A stretch of 64,000 nucleotides of DNA from Nocardioides panacisoli. GTDB lineage: Bacteria; Actinomycetota; Actinomycetes; Propionibacteriales; Nocardioidaceae. The stretch covers positions 2,852,001-2,916,000 of the forward strand of contig NZ_CP080409.1 in NCBI RefSeq assembly GCF_019448235.1, in the 5' to 3' direction. Made by a program: the position numbers and the translations under genes. Positions 21,938 to 48,033 of the stretch are shown here, in pieces (position 1 is the first letter of the stretch; each line of letters begins with the position of its first letter). The notes under the pieces are model-generated. The model was not told the origin of the DNA, made no database searches, and saw only the letters and a program-made list of their open reading frames with translations.

Positions 21938-23698
21938 ATGCACTTCGTCGGACTCGACCTCGCGTGGGGCGAGCGCAAGCCCACCGGCATCGCCGTCCTC
22001 GACGACGAGGGCCACCTGGTCCACCTGTCTGCGGCGCAGGACGACGACGAGATCGTCGCCGCGGTGGCGCCGTACGTCGAGGACGAGTGTGTCGTGGCGA
22101 TCGACGCCCCGCTGGTGGTCACCAACGCCACCGGCAACCGGCCGGCCGAGGCGGCGCTCAACCGCGACTTCGCACGCTTCGACGCCGGCGCCCACCCGGT
22201 CAACACCGGCAAGCCGGAGTTCCGCGACCAGCCGCGCGGGGCGCGGGTGGCCGCACGTCTCGGCCTGGACATGAACCCGCGATCGGGTCGTGCCCGACGC
22301 GCGATCGAGGTCTACCCGCACGCGGCGACCATCGCGCTGTTCCGGTTGGGCAGGACGCTGAAGTACAAGCACAAGCCGGGCCGGGACCTGGAGTACCTCC
22401 GCGGCGAGCTGCTGGTGCTGCTCGGTCGCCTGGAGGGCCTCGCCACCGCCGACCCGCCGCTGCACCTCGAGGCCGACGACACCGCTGGTTGGCGGGCACT
22501 GCGCACCGCGGTCGAGGAGGCGACGACCAAGAGCGAGCTGCGCCGGGTCGAGGACCAGGTCGACGCGGTGGTGTGCGCCCACGTCGCCCGCTACGCGACG
22601 CGGCGCCCCGAGCAGACGACGACGTACGGCGACCTCGAGACCGGCTACATCGTCACCCCGACGCTGCCCGACGACCTCGAGCCGACCCCGCGCGGGAGGC
22701 GCGAGCCGGCGACGCACGACGCGGCCGCCGCCGTGCGGGAGTACGCCGAGCAGCAGCCGGCGCTGCGCGAGGTCGCCGACGGGTTCGTCGACCTGGTGAC
22801 CGCGATCCTGGATGACGCCGGCATCAACTACCTCAGCGTCGGCGGCCGCGCGAAGGGCGTCGCGTCCTTCGCCGCGAAGGCCGCCCGCACCGACGGTGGC
22901 CGCCCGGTCTACCTCGACCCCTTGCGCGAGATCACCGACCAGATCGGCATCCGCGTCATCACCTACGTCCACAGCGACGTTCAGGCCGTCGTGGAGCTCC
23001 TCGACGACCAGGTCGTGGTCCTCGACGACCGGGACATGGGCCGCGAGACAGCCAACGAGGGCCGGTTCGGCTACGCCAGTCGCCACCTGCTCATCAGTCT
23101 CGACCCCGCGCGGGAGGGGCAGCCGGCGTACGAGGCGCTGCGGGGGCGGCAGGCGCAGGTGCAGATCCGCACGGTGCTGCAGCACGCGTGGGCGGAGTTC
23201 GAGCACGACATCCGCTACAAGGGCACGATTCCCGACGAGCACGTCCCCGACTTCGACCGCCGCTTCACCCTCGCGGCGGGCCTGCTGGAGCTGGCCGACC
23301 GTGAGTTCTCCACCATTCGCGACCGGCTGCGGGAGCCGATGGCCGAGCCGGAGGAGTCCGGTGACGGGGACCCGCGGATCAGCCCCCGCGAGCTCGCCGC
23401 CTATCTCGCTGGGCAGTACGCCGCCGCCGGCTGGTCGCGCACCGACCACTACGCGTGGATCGCCGACCTCGTCCTCGAGCTCGGCATCACCTCACTGACC
23501 GAGCTCGGTGACGCGTTGGCGTCGGTGGATGAGGACCTGCTCGCCCAGCGCATGGACTACCGCTACCCGCCGGGCGCCGTACGCCGTCTGGACGACGCGT
23601 TGCTGTGGGAGTACGGCGACACCTACGTCGACCTGCGCGGCAACGCCCACCGCTCCGGGGCGCTCCGCGCCCGACTGGCCCGGATGCGCGGCGACTGA
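21938..23698 (+). CDS. DUF429 - RelA/SpoT-type nucleotidyltransferase fusion protein
   Basis: 586 residues, two domains. N-terminal DUF429 (about 1-240) opens FVGLDLAWGERKPTGIAVLD and has VVAIDAPLVV and IEVYPHAATIALF, an RNase H-like fold with conserved carboxylates. The C-terminal part (about 275-480) is a RelA/SpoT synthetase domain: GGRAKGVASFAAKAA (Arg304, Lys306), DQIGIRVI (Asp334), FGYASRHLLISLD and QVQIRTVLQHAWAEFEHDIRYKG (Gln409 onward). The synthetase motifs look complete and there is no HD hydrolase, TGS or ACT domain, so it resembles a small alarmone synthetase. It would pyrophosphorylate a nucleotide or possibly RNA. ATG at 21938 is chosen for the family start. An iron box lies upstream. 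Confidence 0.85.
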   Translation: MHFVGLDLAWGERKPTGIAVLDDEGHLVHLSAAQDDDEIVAAVAPYVEDECVVAIDAPLVVTNATGNRPAEAALNRDFARFDAGAHPVNTGKPEFRDQPRGARVAARLGLDMNPRSGRARRAIEVYPHAATIALFRLGRTLKYKHKPGRDLEYLRGELLVLLGRLEGLATADPPLHLEADDTAGWRALRTAVEEATTKSELRRVEDQVDAVVCAHVARYATRRPEQTTTYGDLETGYIVTPTLPDDLEPTPRGRREPATHDAAAAVREYAEQQPALREVADGFVDLVTAILDDAGINYLSVGGRAKGVASFAAKAARTDGGRPVYLDPLREITDQIGIRVITYVHSDVQAVVELLDDQVVVLDDRDMGRETANEGRFGYASRHLLISLDPAREGQPAYEALRGRQAQVQIRTVLQHAWAEFEHDIRYKGTIPDEHVPDFDRRFTLAAGLLELADREFSTIRDRLREPMAEPEESGDGDPRISPRELAAYLAGQYAAAGWSRTDHYAWIADLVLELGITSLTELGDALASVDEDLLAQRMDYRYPPGAVRRLDDALLWEYGDTYVDLRGNAHRSGALRARLARMRGD

Positions 23699-46802: not shown

Positions 46803-46896
46803 GGCGGGAGTGATCCCCGGTCGACCGGGGATCACGCCCATTGAATGCATTGGTGTGTCGATCGGTGCCATCTGGTGGCAGTGAACGACACGTCAA
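46803..46896. repeat. Left inverted repeat of the AbiEi-like gene element
   Basis: Two dyads in one 94-nt block. The first (46806-46839) is a palindrome with one mismatch whose core is TGATCCCCGGTC/GACCGGGGATCA. The second (46850-46896) has outer arms TTGGTGTGTCG and CGACACGTCAA, with an inner TGCCA/TGGCA stem. The whole block aligns without gaps, reversed, with 47927-48018 at about 70% identity. Confidence 0.8.
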
Positions 46897-46962
46897 AGGC
46901 CTCGTCCACAGCCGTAGCGGAGCGACGTTGCGCGGGATCTTCGGTCTTGTCACCGTCGAGCG

Positions 46963-47955
46963 ATGGTTGCCGGCTTCGACCTCACCGCGGGTGCAGGGCG
47001 ATTGCTGCGCCGGCAGCGAGGCGTGGTGTCGCGCGGTCAGCTCTTCGACCTCGGTGCGGCGCCCACCGACGTACGCCGCCTGCTGCGCCGGGGGCAGATC
47101 CACCGGCGGTGGCCGGGCGTCTACGTCGACCACAACGGCCCACTTACCTCCGGACAACGTGAATGGGTCGCGGTCCTGGCAGCGTGGCCGGCGGCCCTGA
47201 CCAATGTGTCCGCCCTGCCCGAGCCACCGCCCTCGAGCGTCCACGTCGCGATTGCCCACTCACGCAAGGTCGTGGTCCCCGACTGGGTGCGAGTCCACCG
47301 GACCGTCGACCTGGCGGCCCGCACCCTGCCCGGCAGCAATCCGCCGATGATCGCCCCGGAGCAGGCGCTACTCGATGTCATGGCGGAGCGGGTGTCGGGC
47401 GGTGACGTCCCGGGCGCCTTCGCCGCCCTCGCCCGGACGACGTACGCCGGCCGGACCGGTGGCGAACGCGTGCTCGTCGCGCTCGACGCACGACCGAGGC
47501 TGCCCGGCAGGGCGACCGTGCGCGGCCTGGTCATCGACCACCGCGACGGGGCGTGCTCGGTCCTCGAGCGCGGCTACCTGCTGCGGGTCGAGCGAGCGCA
47601 CGGGCTGCCGCCTCCGCTGCGCCAGCACAGGAGTTTCGCCACGGGCAGGCGGACCGACACCGACGTGGAGCACCCGGGGTACGGCGTGATCATCGAGCTG
47701 GACGGCCGCGCCCACCACGACTCGCCTGCCGCGCGCGACAACGACGCCCGGCGCGACATCGCCGAGTTGGCGACGAGGGGCGCGGTGACCGCGCGTGTCA
47801 CCTACGGGCTGGTCTTCGGGGACACCTGTCGTACGGCGGCCTGGGTCGCTGCGATCCTGCGCCGTCGCGGGTGGCGTGGCGCGTTCCGGCGGTGTCCCCA
47901 GTGCCCGCCCGGCCTCGACGTACCGCTTGGTGTGTCGTCAACTGTCACTGGGTGA
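46963..47955 (+). CDS. AbiEi-like HTH plus DUF559 (PD-(D/E)xK/Vsr-like) protein
   Basis: 330 residues. The N-terminal part (about 8-55) is a winged-helix AbiEi_4-type domain (LLRRQRGVVSRGQLFDLGAA, DVRRLLRRGQIHRRWPGVYV). The C-terminal part (about 235-315) resembles DUF559, a Vsr/restriction-endonuclease-like fold, with IIELDGRAHHDS (Glu245, Asp247). No AbiEii toxin gene is adjacent, so this is not a standard type IV toxin-antitoxin pair. Such genes are stand-alone and multi-copy in Nocardioides. Its stop codon falls inside the right inverted repeat, so the last 9 or so codons are repeat-derived. No clear ribosome-binding site at ATG 46963. Confidence 0.75.
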   Translation: MVAGFDLTAGAGRLLRRQRGVVSRGQLFDLGAAPTDVRRLLRRGQIHRRWPGVYVDHNGPLTSGQREWVAVLAAWPAALTNVSALPEPPPSSVHVAIAHSRKVVVPDWVRVHRTVDLAARTLPGSNPPMIAPEQALLDVMAERVSGGDVPGAFAALARTTYAGRTGGERVLVALDARPRLPGRATVRGLVIDHRDGACSVLERGYLLRVERAHGLPPPLRQHRSFATGRRTDTDVEHPGYGVIIELDGRAHHDSPAARDNDARRDIAELATRGAVTARVTYGLVFGDTCRTAAWVAAILRRRGWRGAFRRCPQCPPGLDVPLGVSSTVTG

Positions 47956-48018
47956 CACCTCACGACACATCAAGTGGGGTGGTGGGAGCGATCCCCGGTC
48001 GACCGGGGATCGCTCCCA
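47927..48018. repeat. Right inverted repeat of the AbiEi-like gene element
   Basis: Mirror order of the left block. The structured part (47927-47973) has TTGGTGTGTCG and CGACACATCAA outer arms with a TGTCA/TGACA inner stem; relative to the left copy both partners of one inner base pair changed (C:G to T:A), a compensatory pair. The second dyad is a perfect 40-nt palindrome (47981-48020, arms GGTGGGAGCGATCCCCGGTC and its complement). It also lies between convergent genes and could end both transcripts. Confidence 0.8.
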
Positions 48019-48033
48019 CCAGCAGAACCTGCC

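Follow-up and report, generated by a model that had tools for sequence, protein, structure and literature searches.

Which kind of genetic unit is formed by a restriction-endonuclease-like gene that lies between two inverted repeats in Nocardioides panacisoli? The gene is located in a 64,000-nucleotide stretch of contig NZ_CP080409.1 (positions 2,852,001 to 2,916,000), referred to here as the window, and encodes a protein of 330 amino acids (46963-47955, + strand). It is enclosed by two 94-nt blocks (46803-46896 and 47927-48020) that agree at 68 of 94 positions, inverted and ungapped, in line with the roughly 70% identity given by a first-pass annotation of the sequence. That annotation treated each block as two dyads that belong together and proposed either a self-contained unit, with the nuclease-like protein framed by structured ends, or a paired regulatory RNA system. 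We found that the blocks are composites of two unrelated things, an outer dyad that recurs throughout the genome and an inner palindrome that belongs to the gene, so the two dyads have to be separated. The self-contained unit was supported, and the same arrangement surrounds most relatives examined. Beyond the annotation, we observed that the inner palindrome is gene-specific, that it has solo copies in some genomes and that a promoter motif ahead of the gene is conserved. By analogy, we lean towards a mobile palindrome system organised like the repetitive extragenic palindrome (REP) with its REP-associated tyrosine transposase (RAYT), in which an unrelated nuclease would bind its own palindrome, cut it, and spread palindromes and whole units. 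The likeness lies in an enzyme gene that has its own palindrome pair, joined in some genomes by solo copies.

A relative of the gene is present in 105 of 118 genomes of the genus. The upstream flank of each gene was compared with its downstream flank, using 1500 cross-locus pairs as background. Of 72 loci, 48 scored above the 95th percentile of the cross-locus pairs and 37 above the 99th. The same 95th-percentile threshold was exceeded by 59 of 80 named loci across several genera (Mycobacterium 18/21, Gordonia 10/12, Pseudactinotalea 3/3, Nocardioides 25/41, plus three single records); some genus loci share palindromes with named Nocardioides records (e.g. L067, L187). When 136 scored loci were pooled, 99 scored above 13.5 and 74 reached at least 24. 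In a control with same-sized windows shifted along the same loci (n = 525), these scores were found in 13 and 0 cases, respectively. The window genome (G000) contains two paralogues, 45-46% identical, each with its own palindrome pair unlike that of the window gene. The flank comparisons thus indicate that matched palindrome pairs are gene-specific around most relatives examined.

The palindromes share a common design. A typical relative's palindrome is about 45 nt long, usually with a CACCWGGTG centre, and all 109 located palindromes are odd-centred, with C at position -4 in 96 and A at -3 in 95. Pairing in the arms is near-perfect at distances of 13-19 nt from the centre and weaker in the inner part. 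The two members of the 74 strong pairs mostly match better as direct repeats (56 pairs) than inverted (18 pairs), so the copies keep their asymmetries. Conservation is highest at the dyad centre, and mismatches in the 109 palindromes comprise 108 G.T and 118 A.C, so there is no G.T excess. Since the palindromic centre is conserved and wobble bias is absent, recognition of DNA seems likelier than recognition of an RNA hairpin, which does not favour the paired regulatory RNA system. In the window, the left palindrome (46850-46896, +) and the right one (47927-47973, +) are 47 nt each and match at 34 of 47 positions inverted and 32 of 47 direct; 17 of 23 positions self-pair in the left copy and 18 of 23 in the right. 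The stop and last codons of the gene, placed earlier in the right block, fall within this right palindrome.

The outer dyad has the form GATCCCCGG-N4-CCGGGGATC and is terminator-like on both sides. The left copy (46806-46839) forms 16 of 17 pairs, the right copy (47980-48021), between convergent gene ends, forms 21 of 21, and the two match at 34 of 38 positions. A search of the 3.57-Mb genome with the left block (both strands, expectation value E up to 10, the block's own match included) returned 70 match rows, all but three within the outer dyad. Copies of it also occur singly at gene ends, far from DUF559 genes. The outer dyad thus looks like an ordinary bidirectional terminator, and its left copy, a member of this genome-wide repeat, probably lies outside the unit. 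Blocks that stand alone at gene ends, with no DUF559 gene, would be plain terminators, a description that fits the outer dyad. The inner palindrome is paired around the gene, while solo palindromes of other families are also found at gene ends.

Solo palindromes were sought with four palindromes, each searched singly against 16 genomes of the genus, the home genome and 15 others. The palindrome of L077 (G062) occupies 10 places at home, two flanking the gene and 8 solo. It is absent from 13 of the 15 other genomes, with three weak matches in G058 and two in G000, of which one is a solo copy and the other belongs to the L002 gene. The L060 palindrome (G107) has 11 places at home, two flanking and 9 solo, and is missing from 14 of 15 others. 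For the L002 palindrome (G000) we found five places, two flanking and 3 solo, plus one 19-nt match, and elsewhere weak matches only (E 2.5e-4 or worse) in 6 of 15 genomes. This 19-nt match to the L002 palindrome is exact and is located in the window at 22791-22809 (G000:C1:2874791-2874809, E 0.0045). No DUF559 relative was detected in the 2-3-kb loci around 8 of 8, 10 of 10 and 3 of 3 solo sites. Copies are about 45 nt long and 79-97% identical, they retain their asymmetries, and the similarity ends at the palindrome ends in the aligned copies. In G059, which is another species, a solo palindrome matches the left copy of the window at 38 of 47 positions, where 100 shuffles give at most 26. Two solos of G023 match the palindrome of a decayed gene copy (L276) at 34 of 37 positions. 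At home, the palindrome of the Mycobacterium locus L152 is represented by two flanking copies, one internally deleted unit and one weak solo. The genome that holds L077 also carries solos of other families (L264, L266, L269) with no DUF559 relative within 3 kb.

The inner palindromes might themselves be species-specific bidirectional terminators that bracket the gene by accident; gene conversion between terminators would then account for the matched pairs and families. The outer dyad does resemble the bidirectional terminators of GC-rich genomes and acts like a genome-wide terminator family. Gene ends, which are terminator territory, also harbour many of the solo palindromes, often where two genes converge. 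However, the inner palindromes match each other across the gene and are specific to it, and in one genome three genes each have a different pair. The shifted windows also contain gene ends, yet none of the 525 gave a strong pair, against 74 of 136 at the gene. In addition, the gene ends within or right next to the right copy, and the left copy stands just ahead of a conserved promoter. We therefore regard accidental bracketing by terminators as unlikely.

Gain and loss of units can be followed beside miaB. A unit adjoins this gene in 17 of 70 surveyed loci, or in 23 genomes once the first-found loci are added; the pair score exceeds 13.5 in 22 of these 23, and units are found in both orientations. 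The same miaB gap is empty in G030 (L094). In G021 (L252) it contains a lone palindrome, and in G086 (L061) a full unit whose palindrome is very similar to the G021 solo. An empty site, which the first-pass annotation had asked for, is thereby found. On a quick tree, miaB residence requires 5 changes, and the starred branches force at least 2. At two further loci (L276 and L291), a gene fragment remains between the two palindromes, so that full, internally deleted, solo and empty states are all seen. Right after the miaB stop in G076 (L092), there is a solo with a GTCACCAGGTGAC centre where close relatives hold full units; the far-side gene is unlike that of these relatives. Several miaB-site units are bordered externally by dyads resembling the outer dyad (GGATATCC or GGTACC centres).

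What could the protein do? It matches the Pfam model AbiEi_4 above cut-off and MTES_1575 REase below cut-off. It is predicted to consist of an AbiEi-like half (model residues 2-194), with the AbiEi-type DNA-binding antitoxin fold, and a Vsr/I-Bth0305I-like nuclease domain (197-305), with the Vsr-like catalytic fold. E202, D234, E245 and H213 are invariant among relatives and are candidates for the EDxHD active-site residues. Pfam and PADLOC models recognise the actinobacterial family as AbiEi-like only. Among the relatives, L143, L144, L172 and L182 have one stop codon inside the matched stretch and are either decayed copies or cases where the match overruns the true end. Loci from nine genomes (L194, L196, L197, L199, L207, L210, L212, L214, L220) share a repeated 23-mer, CGACCGTCACCAGGTGACGGACG or its reverse complement, in the absence of a longer palindrome or a DUF559 relative, and this is perhaps a conserved coding stretch.

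The predicted catalytic fold is common to Vsr and the EDxHD homing endonuclease I-Bth0305I. The unit could be a free-standing homing endonuclease gene: the empty gap is cut, repair copies the gene into it, and the palindromes do no more than insulate or protect the unit. Unlike in Vsr and I-Bth0305I, an AbiEi-like half is fused here, paired palindromes bracket the gene, and no intron or intein was seen nearby. Homing would also leave unexplained the solo palindromes dispersed through one genome, and palindromes that differ from gene to gene yet match within a pair. We consider this explanation very improbable.

The other half of the protein raises the alternative of a DNA-binding regulator like the AbiEi antitoxins, in which the palindromes are operators, the pair serving self-regulation and the solos forming a regulon. 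Excerpts of PMC7319586 describe AbiEi and Rv2827c as binding inverted repeats in their own promoters, and the dyad centres resemble a dimer binding site. However, copies of about 45 nt with 79-97% identity and preserved asymmetries are more than a binding site requires, solo sites are mostly gene ends and not promoters, a second copy stands behind the gene, and nuclease residues are invariant. Self-regulation is thus improbable. Membership in the type IV toxin-antitoxin systems was rejected as well. In spite of the AbiEi-type antitoxin fold, there is no adjoining DUF1814/AbiEii toxin gene, a nuclease domain is present, and palindromes lie on both sides of the gene. The window gene has a zinc-type dehydrogenase gene upstream on the same strand and a convergent GH43 gene on the other side. 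Neither neighbour is a toxin partner, in agreement with the first-pass annotation.

A closer parallel is REP/RAYT (TnpA-REP, 'REPtrons'), in which, according to excerpts of PMC3733652, the palindromes flanking a nuclease gene belong to a family with further, solo copies at extragenic places in the genome. Here, too, a palindrome type flanks a nuclease gene (99 of 136 loci above 13.5), and the same palindrome is dispersed without the gene for L077, L060 and L002, though not for the window's palindrome at home. The differences concern every component. In the parts of the literature consulted, dispersed REP palindromes either have no known enzyme or are linked to a single class, the HUH Y1 transposases. 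The protein here is of an unrelated AbiEi plus Vsr-like type. The Y1 REP transposase (PF01797) was found in 0 of 16 genus genomes in a search that did not extend to Mycobacterium and whose control was positive in 5 of 14, and the window protein itself has no PF01797 match in Pfam. The palindromes are about 45 nt long, compared with 20-40 nt in REP, and number about 3-10 copies per family, compared with a high copy number. A further mark of REP repeats is a GTAG or CGTC tag at one end. Because no component is common with RAYT and the toxin-antitoxin test failed, with only the organisation being familiar, we count the system as a new kind. We did not find it described in the open-access literature, a scope that leaves aside bioRxiv and subscription papers.

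The region ahead of the gene is also conserved. The DnaA-box-like motif TCCACAG, at 46905-46911 (+) in the window, precedes the gene in 118 of 137 loci, with GTTRTCCACAGG as the aligned neighbourhood. In 82 genus genes it was present upstream in sense orientation 68 times, in reverse 3 times and downstream once, while the remaining 269,613 bases of loci sequence contain 26 occurrences on both strands. Weaker placed signals follow it: TTG at +22 to +24, a -10-like hexamer with A at +47 and T at +51, and a start codon often at +58. The window's proposed -35 (TTG, 46928-46930, +) and -10 (CACCGT, 46951-46956, +) elements were read by eye against the aligned consensus. The start codon lies 7 nt beyond the proposed -10 and the mRNA is probably leaderless. 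The aligned layout therefore has the appearance of a leaderless-mRNA promoter with a fixed upstream DnaA-box-like site. TCCACAG resembles the actinobacterial DnaA box, quoted in a part of PMC4285127 as TTGTCCACA, and the site may respond to DnaA. It was not near the palindrome in 24 solo loci. A bolder proposal, which we put forward only tentatively, is a new class of mobile element across Actinomycetota: an AbiEi-Vsr nuclease would copy its private palindrome and itself into gene-end gaps, under a DnaA-timed promoter so that movement follows replication.

How would a REP/RAYT-like palindrome system operate with this protein? The AbiEi-like half may bind the palindrome, the Vsr/homing-type domain may cut or nick there, and repair or transfer would then spread whole units and bare palindromes into gene-end gaps. 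Several points weigh against it. The organisation is seen directly, whereas binding, cutting and movement by the protein are what we infer from it. No clear palindrome pair was detected in 37 of 136 loci. At the window locus, a flank-match score of 24 was reached by 2 of 1039 gene-sized windows slid across the 64 kb, both at this locus, but the score comes largely from the outer dyad; the inner pair is weak if judged there alone, and its reality is accepted because relatives show paired palindromes. The window's own palindrome has no solo in G000 (the right copy finds only itself, E up to 0.1), and the window gene illustrates dispersal poorly. In the solo search, G062 and G107 were chosen for their many core motifs and not randomly, the other two palindromes came from the window genome, and the search left out the L003 palindrome, from the third G000 gene. 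Solos are at gene ends in many cases, and copy numbers are low. The G023 solos mismatch the palindrome of the intact gene (L071, at most 28 of 42). The L152 palindrome matches 5 of 7 other Mycobacterium genomes (best E 1.2e-10), so palindrome privacy is weaker in this genus. Genomes with a unit beside miaB group strongly on the tree (none of 500 shuffles gave so low a value), and therefore much of this residence is inherited; the miaB comparison defined neither a target duplication nor an exact junction. Nevertheless, the terminator, self-regulation and homing explanations each leave part of the data unexplained.

If the favoured reading is true, the partnership of a palindrome and a nuclease would have evolved twice, with two unrelated nuclease families. 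It would also give a role to an actinobacterial family otherwise seen only as AbiEi-like, and many natural pairs of an enzyme and its matching site would be on offer.
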